A stretch of DNA of 15,969 nt, from NCBI GenBank assembly GCA_003990745.1, contig RBNI01003383.1, positions 1 through 15,969 on the forward strand. The letters are read 5' to 3'. Each line of letters starts with the position of its first letter. The stretch's first letter is position 1. Origin of the DNA: Jimgerdemannia flammicorona. Its lineage: Eukaryota > Mucoromycota > Endogonomycetes > Endogonales > Endogonaceae. The notes below the pieces were generated by a model. It was not told the DNA's origin and made no database searches. It was given only the letters and a program-made list of their open reading frames with translations. The translations under genes were made by a program, and so were the position numbers. Shown in pieces: positions 1,167 to 13,104 of the stretch.

Positions 1167-1369
1167 TGTCACATAGTGGTCACTGAGTCTTTCAAATATG
1201 CCAGATTCTCTTCAAGGTGTATCTCTTAGACTAACTCAAGTTTGTTATAAGCAAGTTCTTATTGGAGTACCTTCCCAAGGTCTTATAGTCCTTAAACTTC
1301 TTATTTTTAACTGTCTTGTTATCTCTTAGATTTCTTGCAAGGAAGTGTGTATAGGTGAACTTGACTGAC

Positions 1370-1375
1370 TTTATT
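1370..1375 (-). terminator. Candidate polyadenylation signal in the 3' LTR
   Basis: AATAAA on the minus strand, 20 bases past the TATA box. The same signal is at 8615-8620 in the 5' LTR. In the 3' LTR it could end the element's RNA in R. Usage is inferred from position only. Confidence 0.4.
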
Positions 1376-1394
1376 TCAGAGGAAATAAGAGGGG

Positions 1395-1402
1395 TATTTA
1401 TA
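1395..1402 (-). promoter_or_regulatory. U3 TATA box (left LTR)
   Basis: TATAAATA on the minus strand, followed by ACCCC. It is identical in the right LTR at 8640-8647. It lies about 230 bp from the LTR end, leaving room for R and U5. An AATAAA follows about 20 bases downstream at 1370-1375. Confidence 0.6.
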
Positions 1403-1510
1403 CAAAATATAATTCAATGATTGCTAAGATATAAAGCTAAATATAAATTCCAATAACTAAAACTACCAAGTTCTAGGGCTGGCATTGATAGTTATACAGG
1501 TTCAGGATAC

Positions 1511-1634
1511 TGGCATTATTTGGTATCACATCAAAATGCCAGTGCTGGAACAATTTCATGTCACCTCAGAATACCAGTACTGGTATTATCTGGTATTACA
1601 TGAGAATACCGGTGCTGGTATTATCCAGTGTAAC
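1511..1634 (-). repeat. 35-bp tandem repeats in U3 (left LTR)
   Basis: Units at 1511-1545, 1546-1580 and 1581-1615, plus a partial unit to about 1634. Each begins tgg and ends with a ccagtgc-like block. The unit junction forms a perfect 16-bp palindrome at 1571-1586 (ataccagt/actggtat). The array lies about 110-230 bp upstream of the U3 TATA box in minus sense, where enhancers are expected. Binding by a host factor is inference. Confidence 0.7.
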
Positions 1635-1641
1635 AAAGAAC

Positions 1642-2469
1642 TTAGAGCAGAAAGTTCAGGACCATGGGGGCTTCATCATCATCATCATCATCATCACTGA
1701 AGGAGATGAGATCTGCAAATTCGTCATGCAGGTCACGTGTTTCACATACCTCGATGTCATGTGGGATGACGTCATCGCCGATGACATCATCACATTCAGC
1801 TGTGGCAGAAAAATCGGGAATAAGGTCTGGAGCTCTCCAGTCTATGAGGTTCTCTTCCACAAAATAAGGAACAAATGTGGGGTCTTGGGGGGATCTAACT
1901 CAGATGCTTGGGCCTTGGAATACTGAGATCAATTCTTGCAGGAATTGGTCTGGGTTGTCCTGAAGGATGGGGTACCAAAAGTCTTCTACTTCTTTGCTAT
2001 TGAGGGTGATAGTGGACTGGGCTTCTGTAGCCACCCTAGCTTCTAGCACATTGATATGGTGGGATGATAGGTCTCTGAAGTCTGAGACTCTAACATACTC
2101 CAAGTTGGAGATTGACCATGGTGCATGCCTGAAGATCTGATGGATCTTCTTAGCTGTCCTCATTTCACATATATCTATGGGAGTAGCATCTTGTAGCTCT
2201 TGGGTGCTGGCCTGTGGAAACTCCCAGTAGAGGAGGTTTCTTATTTCATACTCCTGCTACATTTGGAGACATTCAGTAGCAATGGTGATCCTTGTTTCCA
2301 TTTCACAGCAGTAGAGAATGAAGTGATAAGGGTCTGCAGTGCCCAGGTAGACACTAGGAGTCCTTCTTGAGTGAGTCCCCATGGCTCTTCTGATGTCTTG
2401 GAACATCCTTTCTTCAACTGAGGTGCCTTGGTGGTTCCTTGACCTTGAGGTTTGACAGGCGGCAGGTAT
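1642..2469 (-). pseudogene. Unrecognised ORF inside the U3 of the left LTR
   Basis: I do not recognise this protein. One minus-strand frame runs 276 codons from an ATA at 2467-2469 (ATG in the right LTR) to the stop at 1642-1644, broken by only two stops. The TAG at 2257-2259 is private to this copy (TGG in the right LTR). The TGA at 1900-1902 is shared by both LTRs and may be the true end, giving about 189 residues. Visible segments include TPSVYLGTADPYHFILY, VEDFWYPILQDNPDQFLQ and, after the shared stop, an acidic tail with a seven-Asp run encoded by a (TCA)8 microsatellite. It looks soluble, with no signal peptide or membrane segment. The same frame continues upstream as Lys/Glu-rich sequence (KHLEEYKRRIKE) but with several stops shared by both copies. 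Confidence 0.6.
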
Positions 2470-2711
2470 TTCATTTGTGGTAAGTCTTTGAGCTATTTTG
2501 GGATTGGTGGTTCTTATTGGTTACTGCTACTGTGGTTCCTTAATCCTTCTTTTATATTCTTCAAGATGCTTGTACTGTAGTCACAATGACTCACAGTTGG
2601 TCATCATTGCTCATCTCATATGCCGTATAATCTTCTTGTGCTCCAATCTGGTGGCTTGCAAGGAAAGGCTGTCTCCTGTGCTGATGTTATCATTCTGGGG
2701 TCACTGTTACA

Positions 2712-3075: not shown

Positions 3076-4280
3076 TTATATAGGTTTATGGTACTTCTTG
3101 AGTCTGTTCCTATATACTGTGGTAGGCAGTATGGTCTCTGAGATTTTTCTAAGCCAAAAGATAGTTCTCTTGATATCTTGCATGTAGAAGGGTCCTTTCC
3201 ATTTGGGCTCCAGTTTTCACAACCATAAGGCTTCTACTATATTTCGATACAGTAGAACCTTTTCTCCAATTTGGATGGGTTCTAGGGCCTTGTGATTCTT
3301 TTCTGCATTCTTTCTTGTCAGCACTTGTGACTTGGTGATGTAATCTTCAGCCTTCTTCCTGATTTGGTGTAGTCTCTGGATTTTTGCATCAACCTGTCTC
3401 CAAGTTAGGTCTAGATTTGTAGCTGAGGTTCTATCAGAATCTTCTTCTCTAAAGAGCAGCTCTCTTGGAGTAAAATGTATGCTCTGTGACCATATGTCTC
3501 ATAGGACAGAGAGGGTAGTTGGGAGATAGTTATCCCAATTCTCATATGTCTCTGAGATCTTTGCTAGGATGTTCTTGAGAGTCTTGTTGGTTCTTTCTGT
3601 CTGTCCATTTCCTTGAGGGTAGTATGCAGTGGTCTTGATGTGCTGGATCTTGTATTTCTGATACATTATCTCATGGAATCCATTGACAAATTCCATTCTG
3701 CAGTCTGTTGTGATTTGCTTTGGTGTCTTGTAGCAGCAGATGATTTCTCGGTGCAGGAAGTCGGCTATAGAGAGGGCATTGGCTTCTTGTAATACTCCTG
3801 CCTCTATCCATTTGGTGAAGAGGTCTACAATAACTATAATATAGCAGTTTCCTAATAGTGTTACTGGTAGTGGTCCAATGATATCCATTGCGATGTAGTG
3901 GAAGGGGATAGGCTCAATTCTTGATGACCTGGGTGCCTGATCTTGCTGATCTTGTTTCTGTTTTTGGCACTTGTCACACCCTTTGACAAATTGGCATAGG
4001 TCTTCTTCTATCTTAGGCCACCACATGGTTCTTCTTGCCTTGTCATATGTGTTGATTCCTCCTAAGTGTCCTTGCTTGTGTACTTCCTTCATTACTTGAT
4101 ACTTCTTATGTTCAGGTATTACTAGCTTTCCTCCTTTTCTGAGTATAGTGTTGTCTAATTCAAACTATTTCCAAGTCCGGTTGATGATGGTGATTATCCA
4201 GGGTTTGAGGTGGTTGGGCATCTTCCACTGCCTAAGGTAGCTGATTAATCCATAGTATAGCTCCTTATTCATGTTGAATG
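3076..4280 (-). pseudogene. Ty3/gypsy integrase (HHCC, DDE core, GPY/F module)
   Basis: Integrase inserts the cDNA into the host genome. The N-terminal zinc domain shows HKQGHLGG and CDKCQKQK. The core has Asp in AMDIIGPLP, Asp in ITTDCRMEF and Glu in AYYPQGNGQTERTNKTLK, so the three catalytic acids remain. The neighbourhood is altered: DCRMEF is usually D-x-G-x-E-F, and AYYPQ is usually AYHPQ; both can arise by C-to-T/G-to-A changes. LEPKWKGPFYMQDI near 3190 is the GPY/F module. Stops interrupt it at 4165-4167 (TAG), 3499-3501 (TGA) and 3217-3219 (TGA), and the frame ends at TAA 3076-3078. It is in a different frame from the RNase H before it. No chromodomain follows. Confidence 0.92.
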
Positions 4281-4297: not shown

Positions 4298-4760
4298 TCA
4301 GGGTGTCCTTGAGAGTGCATCGGCATTGGTGTTGGTCTTTCCTGAGCAGTGCTTGACAGTACAGTCATACTCTTACAGCCTATAGATCTATCTGGCATAT
4401 ATTCCTTTGGGGTTCAGAGTGTAGAATAGCCAGGCAAGAGCAGAATGGTCTGTTTGAATGGTGAAGTATTTTCCAGCTAGGTAGTAGTGGAACTTGTCTA
4501 CTGCCCAGACTACTGCTAAGCATTCAAGCTTGCATGACTTGTAGTTCTGTTCTGCTCCATGGGTACCTTGGCTTATATAGGAGATGATATATTCATGTCC
4601 ATCTTTCTTCTAAGCTAGGACTGCTCTAAGTCCTATAGTACTCACATCTGTCTGTAGGATGAATTCTAGGTTCCAGTCTGATCTTCTGAGGATGGGTACT
4701 TGGGTCAACCTGGTCTTGAGTTTATTGAAGGTTTCTTGGTGCTCCTTGGTCCATTCAAAT
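4298..4760 (-). pseudogene. RNase H domain of pol
   Basis: The domain degrades the RNA of the RNA:DNA hybrid. QTDVSTIGLRAVLA corresponds to the family's TDASxxGxGAVL opening, with Ala to Val and Gly to Arg changes that fit transitions; the first Asp is kept. A TAG at 4610-4612 follows, where the family commonly has Gln. TIQTDHSALAWLF supplies the later Asp, and NADALSR closes the domain. The frame ends at TGA 4298-4300, after which the integrase is read in another frame, so an indel lies between about 4260 and 4300. It continues directly from the RT. Confidence 0.88.
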
Positions 4761-5690
4761 TTGGTCTCCTTCTTCAGTAACTCATAGATAGGTGCTGTAA
4801 TGTTGGAGTATCCTTTGATGAATCTTCTGTAGTAGCTGGCCAGTCCAAGGAAGGCATGGACTTCTGTGGTTGTTCTGGGTCTTGAGTAGGCTGCAACAGC
4901 CTCGATCTTCATGGGGTCTGTGTAGATTCCAGTCTGGTTGATGAGGTGTCCTAGGTAGGCAATTTCTTGAGCAGCAAACTTGTATTTCTTGGGCTTAATG
5001 TAGAGGCCATACTCCTTGAGCCTCTTGAGGGCTAGCTGTATGTGATTGACATGTTCCCATGTAGTGTTGCTGAAGATGATCATATCATCAACATAGACAA
5101 AGAGCCATTTTCTGATCTCATTGCTGAAGACTCTGTTCATCATTTGCTGGAAACTTGCTGGGGCATTGCACATTCCAAATGGCATTCACAGGTAGATATA
5201 GGTGATATTAGGTGTGATGAAGGCTGATTTCTCACTGGCATCTTGAGTGAGACCAATCTGATGGAAGCCTGAGAACAGATCCAAGATGGTGTAGTATTTG
5301 GCTTTGCTTCCAAGAGTGGTAAGGATTTCTTGAATATTCGGCAAGGGCTGTCTATCCTTCTTGGTGATGGCATTGAGCTTCCTGTAGTCAATGCAAAGTC
5401 TTGGCGCAAACTCTCCAGGCTTGTTTCTTTTCTTTGGGGCTAGGACAATGGGTGAGGCCCAGGGGCTGATGGCTTGCTTGATGATTCTGGCTTCTTCCAT
5501 TTCTGAGTTCTGCTTTCAGCCACTCTCTGTAGGCAGGTGGTATGGGTCTGGCTTTCTGGTAGATAGGCTTGGTATCACTGGTGTTAACTTTGTGGTAGTA
5601 CTTGGGTTCTTGATTGTGGATATCTCTAAAGTCTGTAGCAAGTACTCCTTCATTATAGTACAGGATCTTGAGAAGTTGTTCCTCCAGGGA
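4761..5690 (-). pseudogene. Ty3/gypsy reverse transcriptase
   Basis: RT copies element RNA into cDNA. The N-terminal part in the first frame reads KPIYQKARPIPPAYREWLKAEL (about 5510-5590). A frame break at about 5500 then moves to the next frame: ISPWASPIVLAPKK, LCIDYRKLNAITKKD, YTILDLFSGFHQI. A TGA at 5186-5188 (Trp or Arg expected) precedes MPFGMCNAPASFQQMMNRVF. YVDD, the catalytic signature, is intact at 5084-5095. FLGLASYYRRFIKGYS marks the connection towards RNase H. The break could be decay (one extra base or two missing); programmed frameshifting in the middle of an RT would be unusual. dUTPase lies immediately upstream in the same frame as the RT N-terminus. Confidence 0.93.
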
Positions 5691-5774: not shown

Positions 5775-6190
5775 GGCTCCTCTTCCAGTAGATCCAAAGC
5801 CTTGTTCTCCTCTCTTGGTCTTAATGAGTTTGATGGCTTCTATGATCTTGGGCTTCTTGAATTCATGGATCAGCATCTGGCCAATCCTGTCATGCTTCTT
5901 GACTTCGAAGAGGGTGGTGTGGTTGTGATTTCTGACTATGAGAAAGATCTCACCAGTGTAATCAGAGTCAATTACTCCTCCTTCAACTGAGATTTCGCTT
6001 TTGGCCAGACTGCTCCTGGTCTTGATAATTCTGGCATGGTTTTCTGGTAACTTGACTCCAATTCCGGTGCCAAGTAGGGTAGTGGTCTGTGGTTTAAGAG
6101 TAGTATCTTAAATGCTGGCAAGATCCATTCCTATGGCTCCTTCAGTCTTGTATTCTGAGATCTTGGCTTCGGGGTGAAACTTATTGATCT
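5775..6190 (-). pseudogene. dUTPase domain within gag-pol, between protease and RT
   Basis: Trimeric-type dUTPase hydrolyses dUTP to dUMP and PPi, keeping uracil out of DNA. All five motifs occur in order: GAIGMDLAS (about 6115-6145), TRSSLA (6003-6020), GVIDSDYTGEI with its catalytic Asp (about 5945-5978), DRIGQMLI (5868-5891) and RGEQGFGSTG (about 5785-5815). Motif spacing matches the family. The single defect is a TAA at 6108-6110 just after motif 1, explicable as CAA to TAA. It shares the frame of gag and protease and runs straight into the RT N-terminus, so it was a polyprotein domain. Retroviral dUTPases are known next to protease in betaretroviruses and between RNase H and integrase in non-primate lentiviruses. 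This location in a fungal Ty3/gypsy element is unusual to me. Confidence 0.93.
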
Positions 6191-6560
6191 TGAGGGTGAT
6201 GTCTGATTCTTGTTCCTCCTCATTGTCACTGTCAGCTTGAAGCTCTGGAGACTGGTCACCTTCTTCAGCTTTCCTTTTTGCTTCAGCGGCTTCTTGCTCA
6301 TGTTTCTGTTGGTGGATTTTCCTGACTTCACTGATATAGGACCAGCAGTCATTCAGGTGTTCAGAGCAGTACATTCTAGTACCATGGGGGCATCTTCCTT
6401 GAGGGGTATAGCCATCGATGATCTTATTGTACCACTGCTCATCTGTGAGCTTGGGTGTCTTGCTCTTGTTCTTGTTCACTGAGTGCATGAAGACCTCTGT
6501 GTCTTCTTCATCTCCTTCCTCCATGTCTAGTAGTACTCCTTTGTGGACATTGATAGAGAC
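6191..6560 (-). pseudogene. Protease-dUTPase linker with Cys/His cluster
   Basis: A polyprotein segment in the same frame as protease and dUTPase. MEEGDEEDTEVF begins an acidic stretch. KLTDEQWYNKIIDGYTPQG then leads into CPHGTRMYCSEHLNDC (6345-6392), a Cx7Cx2Hx3C arrangement that could bind one zinc ion. A charged, probably coiled-coil stretch (KIHQQKHEQEAAEAKRKAEE) and an acidic DNEEEQESD tract follow. I know no family with this cluster. It may be a nucleic-acid-binding or structural insertion that came with the dUTPase. A TGA at 6561-6563 separates it from the protease. Confidence 0.6.
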
Positions 6561-6890
6561 TCATACCTTTCTTCCTCTGTAGTTGATCTGCATCTTCTGG
6601 GCATTGAGGTCAATGATGGCCTTGGCCTTGTGAAGCCATTGGTTGCCAATGAGGATGTCATAGTTGGTGGTGCTTATAACAATCATGTCTACTGGGATGG
6701 TAGCTCCTCCTATCTTGATGGGGACTTCTCGGATTTTGCCAAGGGGGGTAGCTCGTATACCATCTGCTGTGACATAGACCATCTTGGTGGACTCTTCAAT
6801 ATCCCAACCTAGGTGGTCAATTGCCTTCTTGCTCATAAGACATCCTCCAGCACCAGTATTAATGATGGCATCAAAGATATAGTCTTCAAT
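6561..6890 (-). pseudogene. Retroviral-type aspartic protease, catalytic Asp replaced
   Basis: The protease processes the polyprotein. The active-site triplet is read as IINTGAGG (AAT at 6858-6860) instead of Asp-Thr/Ser-Gly; GAT to AAT is a G-to-A change that removes catalysis. The rest of the fold is clear: CLMSKKAIDHLGW, ADGIRATPLGKI, then YDILIGNQWLHKAKAIIDL, the conserved hydrophobic-Gly strand near the C-terminus. TAG stops at 6921-6923 and 6891-6893 lie just upstream and TGA 6561-6563 lies downstream, all in the gag-dUTPase frame. Confidence 0.88.
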
Positions 6891-7484: not shown

Positions 7485-8321
7485 GCAACTCTTTACATAG
7501 TAGCCTTCTTCTCTACATCTGAAGCATATAATGTTATTGTATTCTTCTGTAGCAACTGTAAATCTCTGTACTGGTCTCCTGTTGGTGCTTCAGACTTCTC
7601 TAATAACATCACCAAGGTGTGCAGTCATCTCGGCAAACTGCTTGACAAGTTCTTCCACTGGGTCAGCTTTGGCTGTCTTGGGGGTAGATGGGGTTGGTTG
7701 TCTGTTTACGACTGTGACAGGTAAGATACTAGTTGGCTTTGATGGCTCCATCTTGATGCCAGTTATTTTTTCTATTGAGTGTTCAGCAGGGTGTCTGGCA
7801 GTCCAATATCTATGTGCAAAGACCACTTTCTGATCAAGGGTCAGTGCAGCTGGGGTAGACTGGATTGTTAGGGCAATTTCAGGGTAAACTCCTTTGAGGA
7901 AGGTTGAATCCACTATTTGTTCCTTGAGGCAGTCATCATAGCTAGCCAAGACAATCTGGTGGCAGATTCGGGTATAGAATGAGTTGGGATCTTTACTAAG
8001 TCCCTGGCAGATAGTATTGAGTTGATCCTTGAGAGCTTGCTTGATCTCTTTGGTATAATATGTTGTTCTGAGGAAGACCTTCATGTTGGTAAGTTTGACT
8101 GCATCAGTACCAGTAATAGTGGCTGTATTGAACTTGTCTCTGGCAGGTCCTCTAAGGCTGACTGGTAGAAGGGCCAATTGAGCATCCACACCAAGGGCTT
8201 GTATGGTGGTGAATTGTTCAAAGTCTTCAATGAAGGTCAGAATTGACTCTTCAGTAGTATATCCATAGAATGTGAGGGGGTGTATTTCTATCTTATCTTG
8301 AATTCTTGCAGGGGTAATTCT
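7485..8321 (-). pseudogene. Gag (capsid region and CCHC-type zinc knuckle)
   Basis: Gag forms the particle and packages RNA. The frame is open from about 8321 (HPLTFYG, ESILTFIEDFEQFTTI), through a helical capsid-like region (LLPVSLRGPARDKF, YPEIALTIQSTPAALTLDQK), to a TGA at 7590-7592 that likely replaces Arg or Trp. It then reaches the knuckle CFRCREEGYYVKSC at 7485-7526. The knuckle fits Cx2Cx4Hx4C except that His is Tyr (TAC at 7500-7502, from CAC by C to T); the relict near 12490 keeps GHY at this place. No in-frame ATG was found between the PBS and 8190, where TGA codons occur, so the true start is lost or was not ATG. Confidence 0.85.
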
Positions 8322-8390: not shown

Positions 8391-8408
8391 ACCAGCTAAT
8401 GGGCACCA
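8391..8408 (-). promoter_or_regulatory. Primer-binding site
   Basis: After the 5' LTR and a 3-base spacer, the minus strand reads TGGTGCCCATTAGCTGG. TGG pairs with the universal CCA end of tRNAs, and TGGTGCCC would pair with a tRNA ending GGGCACCA. I cannot assign the tRNA without a genome tRNA set. Confidence 0.7.
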
Positions 8409-8639
8409 AGTTGTCATGTAGTGGTCACTGAGTCCTTCAAATATACCAGATTCTCTTCAAGGTGTATCTCTTAGACTAACTCAAGTTTGTTATAAGCAAG
8501 TTCTTATTGGAGTGCCTTCCCAAGGTCTTATAGTCCTCAAACTTCTTATTTTTAACTATCTTGTTATCTCTTAGATTGCTTGTGAGGAAGTGTGTATAGG
8601 TGAACTTGACTGACTTTATTTCAGAGGAAATAAGAGGGG

Positions 8640-8647
8640 TATTTATA
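8640..8647 (-). promoter_or_regulatory. U3 TATA box (right, 5' LTR): likely genomic RNA promoter
   Basis: TATAAATA on the minus strand in the LTR that precedes gag, so this copy would start the full-length RNA. The surrounding 60 bases are unchanged between the LTRs although the rest of the LTRs has diverged. Confidence 0.6.
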
Positions 8648-8755
8648 CAAAATATAATTCAATGGTTGCTAAGATATAAAGCTAAATATAAATTCCAATA
8701 ACTAAAACTACCAAGTTCCAGGGCTGGCATTGATGGTTGTACAGGTTCAGGATGC

Positions 8756-8880
8756 TGGCATTATTTGGTATTACATCAAAATGCCAGTGCTAGAACAATT
8801 TCGCGTCACCTCAGAATACCAGTGCTGGCATTATCTGGTATTACATGAGAATACTAGTGCTGGTATTATCTAGTATAACA
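8756..8880 (-). repeat. 35-bp tandem repeats in U3 (right LTR)
   Basis: The same 35-bp array as in the left LTR: units at 8756-8790, 8791-8825 and 8826-8860, then a partial unit. Differences from the left copy are nearly all transitions. It sits upstream of the TATA box at 8640-8647 in minus sense. Confidence 0.7.
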
Positions 8881-8886
8881 AAGAAC

Positions 8887-9713
8887 TTAGAGCAGAAAGT
8901 TCAGGACTATGGGGGCTTCATCATCATTATCATCATCATCACTAAAGGAGATGAGATCTGTGAATTCGTCATGCAGGTTGCGCATTTCGCATACCTCGAT
9001 GTCATGTGGGATGACGTCATCGCCGATGATGTCATCACGTTTGGCTGTGGTGGAAAAATTGGGAACAAGGTCTGGAGCTCTCCAGTCTATGAGATTCTCT
9101 TCCACAAAATAAGGAACAAATGTGGGGTCTTGGGGAGATCTAACTCAGATGCTTGGGCCTTGGAATACTGAGATCAATCCTTGCAGGAATTGGTCTGGGT
9201 TATCCTGAAGGATGGGGTACCAGAAGTCTTCTACTTCTTCACTGTTGAGGGTGATAGTGGACTGGGCTTCTGTAGTCACCCTGACTTCTAGCACATTGAT
9301 ATGGCGGGATGACAGGTCTCTGAAGTCTGAGACTCTAACATACTCCAAGTTGGGGATTGACCATGTGTATGCCTGAAGATCTGATAGATCTTCTTAGCTG
9401 TCCTCATTTCATGTATGTCCATGGGAGTAGCATCTTGTAGCTCTTGGGTGCTGGCCTGTGGGAACTCCCGGCAGAGGAGGTTTCCTATTTCATACTCCTG
9501 CCATATTTAGAGACATTCAGTAGCAATGGTGATCCTTGTTTCCATTTTACGGTAGTAGAGAATGAAGTGATAAGGGTCTGTAGTGCCCAGGTAGACACTA
9601 GGAGTCCTTCTTGAGTAGGTCCCCATGGCTCTTCTGATGTCTTGGAACATCCTTTCTTCAACTAAGGTACCTTGGTGGTTCCTTGACCTTGAGGTTTGGC
9701 AGGCGGCAGGCAT
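8887..9713 (-). pseudogene. Unrecognised ORF inside the U3 of the right LTR
   Basis: Second copy of the U3 reading frame. It starts at ATG 9711-9713 (MPAACQTSRSRNHQG) and continues as VYLGTTDPYHFILYYRK. A private TAA at 9507-9509 replaces the CAA kept in the left LTR. A one-base deletion near 9363-9370 shifts the frame, which resumes as LEYVRVSDFRDLSS... to the shared TGA at 9145-9147. A 72-codon acidic segment beginning MEENLIDWRAP ends at 8887. The two LTR copies were identical when the element inserted, so each shows a sense codon where the other has a private stop. The protein has no family I can name. Being in U3 on the sense strand, it recalls U3-encoded accessory genes of some retroviruses, but no homology is claimed. 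Confidence 0.6.
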
Positions 9714-9955
9714 TTTGTTTGTGGTAAGTCTTTGAGCTATTTTGGGATTGGTGGTTCTTGTTGGTTACTACTACTGTAGTTCCTTGATCCTTCTTTTATA
9801 TTCTTCAGGATGCTTGTACTGTAGTCACAATGACTCACAGTTGATCATCATTGCTCATCTCATATACCGTATAATCTTTTTGTGCTTCGATCTGGTGGCT
9901 TGCAAGGAAAGGCTGTCTCCTGTACTGATGTTATCATTCTGGGGTCACTGTTACA

Positions 9956-12132
9956 ATATGTTAGTAATTGATTGCTCTGCCTCCTCAATAAATTCTTTTT
10001 CTCAGCCTTGATCTTTATAATATTAAAGCTTTAATTGTAGATCTAAAACTGGTCAAATATTGGAATTATAATCAAAATAATGAAATTTCTCATTTTAATT
10101 TATAAAAAACAATACTTTACTTACTGGTGCTGACAGAAAATACAGAAGCACCTGTTTTTGAATAATATTTTTTAAGCTTCTTCAAAGCTGCTTTACTAGC
10201 TTCCTTTTGCCTTAAAAAAGATATATCTTTATTCTCCAATAAGTCTAGTAGGTCTTTAAGTTGATCAATCAAAAGATTATACACTGGAATTGCAGAATAT
10301 ATTATTGAAAACTTTTGCCAAATAACTTCTTTTGTATATTCATTAAAATGCTAAAATAAAATAAAGAGTAAAAGTATAAAAAAAGATGAGTAAAGTAAGA
10401 CTAAATTTGCAAAAATACTAATAAATACCTTTTTACTCACCTCTAAAACTTTAACAACTTTCCTCAATTTTGCCCACTCATTCTTTTCAATTACTATATC
10501 TCACATATCTTTATCAGTAGCAGCTATAGGATCTAGTACCTAAATTATATATGTTTAAATAAGTTAATATTAATTAATAAGTCAAATCTTATTCTATAAT
10601 ATTATCATTAATAATCTATATATTATAGCAAGTATTAGTGCTCATTCAATCATCATAAATTTTGAATTCCAATGTGTACTGATATCCAAAATAAGTTCTT
10701 TTAGATTGAGAGAGATTGCTTTATACTATTCAGTAAGTTTTTTTTGCCATAGTGGTGATGATCAAATTGTAATAATCAATTTGCATAACTTTGAAATAGT
10801 ATTAGAGCTTTTGCTAGATTCACTCCAGTCACTGAATAGTTGCATGAGATAATCTTGAGCAGTGAGATTTAGAACATAGACTTGACACTATATATAGTTG
10901 TTGTTAGTATCAAAGATTATATTTTCTTATTGAAGTTTTATTATTAAAGTATAGAGAAATATAATATTATTAGAGGCATTGTCTATTGTAATAGCCAATA
11001 TCTCTATTTCAAAATTTTTATATATAAAATTATATAGAAAATAGTTAATAATTAAAAGTAAAAAGCTTTTTTTTTTTTTTTCATTCTCTTTTTATATTAG
11101 TTTAAAAATAAAAAACTCCTATACTTTAGTTGTAATTCCAAACTCATGAATATAGTTTATAAATACTTCTGTAATATTTTCTTCAGAGTGAGGACCCTCA
11201 AGCTTTATGAAGTCAAGAGTAAGAGTTTGAAGCTGTCAATTGGAATCAATCTAATGTCTAGTAATACTAAGAAACAAAATGACATTGGGAGATATCCAGA
11301 TATCAATCATAAATAAAATTTTACCCATAATACTCTATAGTAAAATTTAAAATATAGTTAATAACTACATATAATTAATTCAATAATATTCTTAATATTA
11401 CTAATATTTTACCTGAAGCTTTTGACAGAGATTATTATATTCTTTTTTATAAGCCTCTATAATATCATTATGAATAGTATCAGCACTTGGGGTATATAAA
11501 TTAGTCTTAAGAAAACCAAAGAGACTTTATAAAGAAGTACTCTCAATTACTATAAATAGTTGATCATTATATATAATCCAATGAATAAGTTGATTTCAAA
11601 ACTCTAAAGCAGAATATGGCTAAATTTGGGGTGTTTTTTTTAAGTATAAAAGACATATTTTTAAATTTATATTAAAATAAAAAAGAGATCACCTACTTAC
11701 TATAGCCAGAATATCAATTTTACTTGATACTATATTTAACTCTATTTTATCTAAATATTGGGCCTTTATATACTTTATCATATTTATTGTAGAACCACTA
11801 TATATTTTATATTTCTACCTATATTTTAAATTTTTTATATTTATATCAAATAAACTATAAATATATATATATTTTTTTAAAAAAAAAAAAAAAAAAAATT
11901 ACCTGCAATATATACAAGTAACTTCATTTTCCCCAGTTTTGGTACAGTGTTAACAAACTTTAGAATAAGGAGTATAGTATGAAATATTATTTAAAGAAGA
12001 AGTCTAACTTAAAGTATCACCAGTATTAGAAAATACTGATAACTGATCTGTTGATGTTGATGTTGATATAGTATATATGTGAGTATATATATATATATAT
12101 ATATTCATATTTATATTTGTAAATATACCCAT
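9956..12132 (-). pseudogene. hAT transposase, 5' part (BED finger and catalytic region), eight introns in whole gene
   Basis: Exons on the minus strand, by GT-AG ends and reading frame: 11903-12132, 11701-11818, 11413-11619, 11125-11334, about 10626-11001, 10441-10539, 10125-10350 and 9956-10048, continuing at 1162. The start is ATG 12132 or 12108. Exons 1-2 hold a BED-type finger (TCIYC at the end of exon 1, then GSTINMIKYIK). Family landmarks follow: PSADTIHNDIIEAY, IDIWISPN, LDFIKLEGPHSEEN, LAITIDNASNN, LDISTHWNSKFMMIE, IPVYNLLIDQL and LKKYYSKTGASVF. Predicted length with the 3' part is about 637 codons, normal for hAT. More than a dozen in-frame stops occur, nearly all at plausible Gln, Trp or Arg positions (e.g. 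TAA 10023-10025, TGA 10002-10004). The donor of the intron near 10625 is lost. Confidence 0.9.
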
Positions 12133-12156
12133 GAATATTTTTCTCTCACATTCCTC

Positions 12157-12164
12157 TATTTATA
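12157..12164 (-). promoter_or_regulatory. TATA box of the hAT transposase gene
   Basis: TATAAATA on the minus strand, 25-50 bases before the candidate ATGs at 12132 and 12108. It is close to the start codon, so the leader would be short. A (TA)n microsatellite at 12084-12104 lies in the first exon and keeps the frame here. Confidence 0.45.
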
Positions 12165-12194
12165 CATATAAGTAAATTATGTAATAAGTTTCAT

Positions 12195-12470
12195 TTATTT
12201 ATAAGATTCAAATTAGATGATTCAAATCTAGCTGAGATTCAAATTTGATAATTCAAATCTGATGATTTAAATCTGATTATTTGAATTCAGTAATTCAAAT
12301 TTAGTGATTTGAATTCAGTGATTTGAATTCAGTAATATGAATCATCAGTTTGGAGATTTGAATTAGAGCAGTCACAATTCAAACTGATTTGAATTAATTA
12401 TATGATGAATTCAAATCAGTTTGAATCAGGAATAGACTCAATTTAAACTGGTTTGAACTGACTCATTTGG
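12195..12470. repeat. TTCAAA/TTTGAA-rich subterminal repeat array of the hAT element
   Basis: About 270 bases packed with some 15 or more copies of TTCAAA or its complement TTTGAA, often as attcaaatc, gatttgaat or the palindrome gaattcaaat. It lies between the transposase promoter and the gypsy relict, i.e. at the 5' end of the hAT element. hAT transposases bind short repeated subterminal motifs, so this may be the binding array. No gene is present and no terminal inverted repeat could be fixed. Confidence 0.5.
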
Positions 12471-12472
12471 AG

Positions 12473-13104
12473 TACTAGCTATATCTATAGAGAAAAAGGT
12501 CACTACTTATATAAATATATAAGTGAGATCAAGTATAAGGTCTAGTTAAGCAATGCTACTCAGAATAAAGAACAGATCAATATTATCACCTTTGAAGAAA
12601 TTGAAGTATCTGATGAAGAAGAATGGGAGATCTATCTTATTTAGACTATAAAGAAAGATTTCTATAAAGAGCTCTATAAGAGACTACCAAAAAGACTCAA
12701 GAAGAACTTAGTGGAAAGACAGATAGTGACTATTATAGAAAGTCAAGCTAAAGAAATAGACCAAGATATGAAGCTTGAGAAGACAGTTCAAGATATCATC
12801 TGAGAAACTACCTCAGTCTTAGCTAGTAAAGGAAAAAAGAAGAAAAAGTTTCACAAGATCAAGATCTTCAAGTATAATATCTTTAAGAATCTCAGTCAAT
12901 AAAAAGTCAATACAAACTTTGACCAGTTGATAGAAATTCCCACATTTAGATAATAAATGAGATTTGGACTTATTAAAACAGTCAAAGACTAAGACTAGAA
13001 GATAACTAAGATCAATAATATTTAAGAAGACTTTAGAGAAGAGAGTAAAGATAATTATAAGATCTCTATCTATATAATCTATTAGATTGAGGATAGAGTC
13101 TTTG
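12473..13104 (+). pseudogene. Relict gypsy gag-to-protease segment (paralogue of 6840-7530)
   Basis: A plus-strand frame aligns with the gypsy element in this window from the zinc knuckle to just before the protease active site. Shared anchors are G-H-Y (knuckle), K-x-x-x-S-N, EQ-x-N, KEIDQDM, KxKIxxYxIxKxL, FxQLxExPxFR, ESKD and IEDxxF. Stops are frequent: TAG 12543, TAA 12900, TAA 12951, TAA 12954, TAA 12990 and TAA 13023 each fall opposite Gln in the gypsy copy. Cys codons of the knuckle have become Tyr. The match stops at 13101-13104, directly before T-rich sequence and LINE-related DNA, so the relict was probably cut by the LINE. Confidence 0.8.

Follow-up and report, generated by a model that had tools for sequence, protein, structure and literature searches.

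The window, a stretch of DNA of 15,969 nucleotides, contains one inactivated copy of an 8.8-kb Ty3/gypsy LTR retrotransposon, lying on the minus strand and carrying a trimeric dUTPase domain between protease (PR) and reverse transcriptase (RT). Comparison of copies indicates that the domain belongs to the element family, and the genome holds three dUTPase-bearing families, here called A (the window family), B and C, in which the domain lies on either side of the protease. In this high-copy fungal element, the Pol dUTPase quite probably hydrolyses dUTP beside RT and limits uracil in the cDNA.

Motif reading on the minus strand defines the dUTPase domain at 5784..6140, with motif 1 (GAIGMDLAS) at 6140-6114, motif 2 (TRSSLA) at 6020-6003, motif 3 (GVIDSDYTGEI) at 5978-5946, motif 4 (DRIGQMLI) at 5891-5868 and motif 5 (RGEQGFGSTG) at 5813-5784. 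The five motifs share one frame and follow the expected order, in keeping with the five-motif definition of trimeric dUTPases. The initial annotation named no strand; a plus-strand reading of 5775-6190 was rejected, as its translation contains stops and no motif. Moreover, PF00692 matches the stop-free piece 6107-5391 with E=6.6e-22 over profile positions 23-129 of 129; this provides the Pfam comparison that the initial annotation had proposed and, together with the motifs, bears out its central reading of a dUTPase domain within a fungal Ty3/gypsy polyprotein between protease and RT. The same annotation described the motifs as both in order and in frame between the two enzymes: the order, the single motif frame and the location hold, whereas in the window copy a stop lies between motifs 1 and 2 and RT occupies a different frame. 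An AlphaFold2 model of the Cys/His motif plus dUTPase of another family A copy (L065) has a mean pLDDT of 75, with values above 90 in the dUTPase core and low confidence in the Cys/His region. All 50 PDB fold matches listed for this model are dUTPases, with target TM scores up to 0.94, as for the Entamoeba structure 3lqw; the predicted fold of the L065 domain is thus that of a dUTPase.

The surrounding element shows two traits of Ty3/gypsy elements, namely LTRs around a coding region and the Pol order PR - RT - RNase H - integrase (IN) by Pfam, and all its features lie on the minus strand. By direct reading, the 3′ LTR (1167..2711) has TG..CA ends and a purine-rich tract before it on the element strand, while the 5′ LTR (8412..9955) was placed by direct reading and by alignment with the 3′ LTR, the pair being 93.9% identical over 1546 columns (1166-2711 against 8411-9955). 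The 4-bp repeat ATAT flanks the element as a possible target-site duplication that, being AT-rich, may also have arisen by chance. Directly after the 5′ LTR, a putative primer-binding site (8391..8408) begins TGGTGCCC, with a TGG start; no tRNA was matched to this sequence, and Rfam and tRNA scans of the window gave no match. The gag region contains a CCHC zinc knuckle (CX2CX4HX4C, 7485..7526, direct reading), and its pieces have no Pfam match. A stop-free piece of aspartic protease (6566..6890, PF08284 E=2.3e-9), which shares its frame with the dUTPase, is followed by a Cys/His motif (CPH..CSEH..C, 6342..6398, direct reading), which separates it from the dUTPase. Beyond the dUTPase lie RT (4610..5515, PF00078 E=4.5e-9 and 4.8e-19 in two pieces, with an internal stop), part of RNase H (4393..4609, PF17917 E=1.1e-21), and an integrase comprising an H2C2 zinc domain and rve core (3499..4092, PF17921 E=3.7e-14 and PF00665 E=7.2e-10). 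Past the integrase core, direct reading finds a GPF-like motif, KWKGPFY (3175..3204), presumably the module named GPY/F. No chromodomain of family A was found by Pfam in window 3498-3222, a scan that ends before the last stretch ahead of the LTR.

The window copy itself is dead. Stops interrupt gag, RT and the dUTPase (between motifs 1 and 2) and flank the protease match on either side; the frame also shifts between dUTPase and RT and again ahead of the integrase. The polyprotein is therefore closed, by the stop between motifs 1 and 2 and by the displacement of RT into a frame other than that of the dUTPase. Outside the element, the flank at window 10000-13000 is very AT-rich, with 21-27% GC against about 44% in the element, and has no listed ORF of 100 aa.

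Searches of the window's own assembly (134.8 Mb, 7754 contigs) place this copy within a large family. The host is most likely Jimgerdemannia flammicorona or a close relative in the Endogonales; for this species, excerpted reports give a genome of 240 Mb (PMC7928374) and a repeat content above 77%, such genomes deriving from field-collected fruiting bodies (PMC10386755). A query of dUTPase plus linker returned at least 150 matches at 77-100% identity (best 150 of 7036 candidates, the window's place included), a count that is a lower bound and in which copies lacking the domain could not appear, because the query contained the dUTPase. The Pfam dUTPase model likewise gave at least 150 matches on the same genome (best 150 of 5391 candidates). 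All 150 scored matches of the first query continue from the dUTPase into the stretch leading to RT. The initial annotation had kept in view that a separate host dUTPase gene might have been inserted into the window copy alone. With the domain joined to the stretch before RT at 149 other scored places, and with a metagenome protein (P0002, 90% identity over 64% of the query) also carrying dUTPase and RT, such a private insertion is effectively excluded. The host assignment draws on a mitochondrial cox3 of the assembly (G000:C3007, translation table 4), whose best match is a Jimgerdemannia flammicorona protein (P0094, 82% over 88%); by eye the two agree exactly over long stretches, and the remainder seems to reflect another splicing or code reading. 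This contig is tied to that of the window solely by membership of one assembly. As a separate observation, the mitochondrial contig (G000:C3007, L077) carries a full cox3 and a second set of cox3 pieces; an open frame continues past cox3 and may belong to a mobile intron.

Other family A copies retain what the window copy has lost. Specifically, L065 has a single 802-aa ORF that contains most of PR (residues 2-84, profile 47-130 of 136), dUTPase (223-350), RT (476-631) and RNase H (696-801). Among 30 distinct copies, the checked motif residues are nearly invariant: R2, S2, Y3, Q4, R5 and F5 are each present in 30/30, and D1 and D3 in 29/30, while the matched dUTPase domain lacks a stop in 26/30. 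The dN/dS of the dUTPase, 0.21 (29 ungapped copies), sits within the 0.17-0.33 range of the other pol parts, namely PR 0.33 (25), linker 0.23 (21), pre-RT 0.17 (30), RT 0.27 (27) and RT-RH 0.25 (25); these loci were chosen as best protein matches, which biases them toward conservation, with lower dN and fewer stops chiefly in the dUTPase. The PR, RT and RNase H parts lay outside the search query, and their dN/dS is still 0.33, 0.27 and 0.25. The dN/dS sample is confined to the 30 loci L035-L064, L035 being the window's own place; in a set of 34 loci, two were skipped for too short a match, and two of those used were re-fetches of others. The single ORF of L065, the near-invariant catalytic residues and a dN/dS of about 0.2 together argue that the domain is a family trait. 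In L066, an 871-aa ORF (L066:887-3502) passes from the RT of an A element, where it starts, into unrelated DNA; a nested insertion in this copy is the probable cause.

The three families differ in where the domain is placed. Pol of family A runs PR - Cys/His motif - dUTPase - RT - RNase H - IN. In family B, one locus (L031) has a CCHC knuckle and dUTPase in one ORF and RT in a later one, the knuckle scoring 20.5 bits with PF00098 against a cut-off of 20.8, and a second locus (L034) has dUTPase then PR in one ORF; combining these ORFs gives the order CCHC-dUTPase-PR-RT. In family C, a single ORF of L032 encodes dUTPase, PR and RT in that order, preceded by a CCHC motif found by eye, and L033 has a chromodomain (E=1.1e-17). 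A second dUTPase-bearing family is also abundant, with at least 150 matches at 92-100% identity to its own domain (best 150 of 5182 candidates). The matched domain is free of stops in 7/9 distinct B copies and in only 4/32 distinct C copies.

The Cys/His motif accompanies the domain in mirrored positions: in A it follows PR and precedes the dUTPase, and in B, where the segment lies at L034:3529-4197, it follows the dUTPase and precedes PR. The A and B segments share 22 of 49 residues, and their local score of 127 far exceeds the maximum of 47 among 1000 shuffles; the motif matches no Pfam family above cut-off. Ten pairs were compared, with 1000 shuffles each. Beyond A with B, the A segment scores 57 against P0078 (shuffle maximum 52, reached by 0/1000), the B segment scores 38 against P0052 (reached by 3/1000), and in the other seven pairs the score was reached by 95 to 535 of 1000 shuffles. 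In addition, a regular expression for the motif matches 7/41 dUTPase-bearing proteins and 0/54 others; in one of the seven, P0067, the motif lies about 440 residues from the dUTPase, and the other six represent four element kinds. On these comparisons, the case for homology of the motif outside A and B is weak.

For the function of the domain, lowering of dUTP beside RT is the most likely reading by analogy with retroviral dUTPases, which, according to excerpts of PMC2427051, are produced within Gag-Pol and should be packaged, and on which nonprimate lentiviruses depend in non-dividing cells. In open-frame copies, the polyprotein would include the dUTPase and presumably bring it into the virus-like particle, where the enzyme would split dUTP into dUMP and pyrophosphate close to RT. 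A low dUTP/dTTP ratio would then leave little uracil in the cDNA, and such cDNA may escape cutting or loss before integration. We infer enzymatic activity, trimerisation, packaging and a benefit to transposition.

The conserved residues also bear on whether the domain might be retained for something other than catalysis, be it as a folded spacer or trimeric scaffold between protease and RT, or as a nucleic-acid or assembly module working with the Cys/His motif. That motif does adjoin the dUTPase in A and B, and some B and C copies lack motif residues, the motif 2 Arg being kept in 7/9 B copies and the motif 5 basic residue in 7/9 B and 19/32 C copies. In its title, PMC4261571 reports a lentivirus whose replication depends critically on a dUTPase-related gene even though the encoded protein has no dUTPase activity. 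Nevertheless, each of the eight checked residues persists in 29 or 30 of 30 A copies, and motif 3 retains its catalytic Asp, a residue that a mere scaffold would not need, throughout B (9/9) and C (32/32); a purely non-catalytic role is accordingly unlikely, and dUTP hydrolysis beside RT is preferred.

Uracil-DNA glycosylase bears on the proposed role because its action would turn uracil in cDNA into a liability. PF03167 has no match in the assembly, which itself seems incomplete: among repair-gene controls, MutS_V occurs in 3 contigs and HhH-GPD in 1 place. In view of this sparseness, the absence of PF03167 was dropped as evidence against a uracil-related role. A search with an animal dUTPase fragment singled out no host dUTPase gene among its best 150 places, many of which coincide with repeat places.

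Phylogenetic analysis indicates that the dUTPase likely entered RT lineages at least twice, by capture or by exchange between elements, a conclusion that follows from the rejection of shared RT clades. The RT tree contains 55 related RTs, without a copia or retroviral outgroup; 8 of 63 rows lacked an RT stretch of 150 residues and were omitted, including the dUTPase-bearing P0031, P0052, P0055, P0056 and P0078. The RT of L065 groups with P0003 and P0004 (100/98), both of which also join dUTPase to RT, while those of B and C belong to a separate 26-row clade (100/99), which includes proteins without dUTPase annotation as well. AU tests reject a single RT clade uniting A with B (p=0.010) or with C (p=0.0004), as well as one comprising the tree's full set of seven dUTPase-bearing RTs (p=8.6e-11), whereas B+C is not rejected (p=0.379).

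The domain tree, with 58 rows chosen by hand from two protein searches, resolves little because the domain is short; A, B and C stand apart in it, in an analysis whose bootstrap had not settled. No one-clade hypothesis for the domain is rejected at 0.05, whether for A+B+C (p=0.067), A+B (0.253), A+C (0.102), B+C (0.14) or A with P0003/P0004/P0052 (0.196). This leaves some room for a single capture inherited by A, B and C and followed by relocation inside the polyprotein, an account with which the Cys/His motif common to A and B and the RT compatibility of B with C also agree. The RT rejections, the failure of A, B and C to join in that unsettled domain tree, and the intervening RTs from proteins not annotated with dUTPase, some of them partial, weigh against it and make it a rather improbable history. 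More speculatively, dUTP control might be a general condition for Ty3/gypsy success in this genome, with a dUTPase-finger cassette of A and B swapped between lineages and installed on the other side of PR, a proposal that we hold only tentatively and regard as doubtful.

Several dUTPase-bearing proteins from the same searches have other architectures. Among P0060-P0080 and P0089, mostly from ENA contigs, several combine dUTPase with PF13976, PF07727 or PF25597, domains of Ty1/copia type, and dUTPase may therefore also occur in copia-type elements. In the dUTPase tree, four of these proteins group as a single clade, with P0089 placed elsewhere. P0055 and P0056 of Zingiber officinale carry dUTPase and RT or RNase H domains together with PF06839, presumably the GRF zinc finger, and possibly represent an endogenous pararetrovirus.

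The elements also bear a pronounced C-to-T signature. The window LTR pair differs at 94 sites, 93 of them transitions and 1 a transversion, and its K2P distance of 0.065 was not used for dating because almost all changes are of one type. The changed fraction, measured on repeat DNA alone in this LTR pair, is 43/246 at CpA, 5/219 at CpT, 10/150 at CpC, 9/25 at CpG, 24/33 at mixed CpG/CpA and 2/24 at other sites, with CpA differing from CpT at p=2e-8 and changes on both strands. Repeats within other loci, either LTR pairs or tandem, show transition:transversion counts of 13:0 (L032), 83:2 and 37:6 (L034), 38:1 (L065) and 14:3 (L066), and comparison of the window LTR with fragments at other loci gives 435:36. 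Between copies, the coding-part ratio is 21.2 in C and lower in A (7.1) and B (6.0).

This process was considered in relation to the domain, since the initial annotation suggested that the dUTPase might counter a deamination-based host defence. The strength of the C-to-T process on the elements would fit such a need. The damage is nonetheless heavy in copies of elements that carry the domain, affects both strands and depends on context, all of which speaks against a dUTPase that stops deamination. Moreover, dUTPase acts on free dUTP and cannot undo a deaminated cytosine in DNA. A protective role of this kind is consequently very unlikely and the suggestion is abandoned, leaving the lowering of dUTP beside RT as the preferred function.

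The RIP criteria observed are C-to-T transitions in repeats, a preference for CpA and an effect on both strands, and the signature resembles that of RIP or of deamination linked to methylation. Because CpG sites change at least as often as CpA, methylation decay by itself offers a partial alternative. The evidence bearing on an RID-type cytosine methyltransferase consists of two brief exon matches to DNA_methylase (E=5.0e-4 and 7.8e-4). According to the excerpted text of PMC12543289, strong RIP signatures occur in 130 species, all in four ascomycete classes, with traces in 105 genomes; within a partial coverage of the literature on RIP in Mucoromycota and Endogonales, no title or abstract opening concerned this host. 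A RIP-like signature in a likely Mucoromycotina host may thus be the more unusual side result of the analysis.

The PR-dUTPase-RT architecture is not new. The initial annotation was not aware of dUTPase as a standard domain of fungal Ty3/gypsy elements, and the implied suggestion that it might be unreported is not borne out: in the excerpts of PMC2864245, from 2010, Ty3/gypsy families of Postia placenta carry the domain N-terminally in Pol, C-terminally or between PR and RT, and independent acquisition was already proposed there. PosPlaTy3-5 and its relatives resemble the window element in having dUTPase between PR and RT in a fungal Ty3/gypsy context, and Postia resembles the present genome in that its families carry the domain at different places; the host, however, is a basidiomycete, and the likeness is by description only. 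Earlier fungal LTR retrotransposons with dUTPase, as cited in excerpts of PMC2864245, PMC5408684 and PMC6431247, are Phanerochaete Metaviridae (Novikova and Blinov 2008) and Tmt1 of Tuber (Riccioni et al. 2008). The bdelloid rotifer elements Juno, Vesta and TelKA also place dUTPase between PR and RT, but have animal hosts and ORF3 genes, and Juno has an extra zinc knuckle after the dUTPase (by description, PMC5408684, in excerpt). Planarian elements share the order, in a report whose excerpt also mentions fungi (PMC6431247), and dUTPase enrichment is described in Entomophthora (PMC11105155, in excerpt). The badnavirus CYVBV has the zinc finger - trimeric dUTPase - protease order of families B and C, although it is a plant pararetrovirus and the window family has the protease first (PMC5649073, in excerpt). 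Betaretroviruses and nonprimate lentiviruses likewise hold the enzyme inside a retroviral polyprotein (PMC2427051, in excerpt). Among the literature matches listed, none reports a dUTPase retrotransposon in Endogonales. What this analysis adds is the presence of three dUTPase families in one genome on both sides of the protease, together with their spread over at least two RT lineages and a Cys/His motif that two families hold in mirrored order.

Collectively, these results extend the small set of published dUTPase retrotransposons to an early-diverging, mycorrhizal lineage of fungi. As judged against the excerpted survey of PMC12543289, the C-to-T signature suggests a RIP-like process beyond the four ascomycete classes with strong signatures. 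If the cassette proposal is correct, the Cys/His finger would represent an as yet unnamed partner of retroelement dUTPases that perhaps tethers the enzyme to nucleic acid or to RT. The combination of very many copies and two domain placements in one genome makes this fungus a setting in which both a possible dUTP problem during reverse transcription in fungi of this kind and the possible movement of dUTPase modules between retroelements can be tested.
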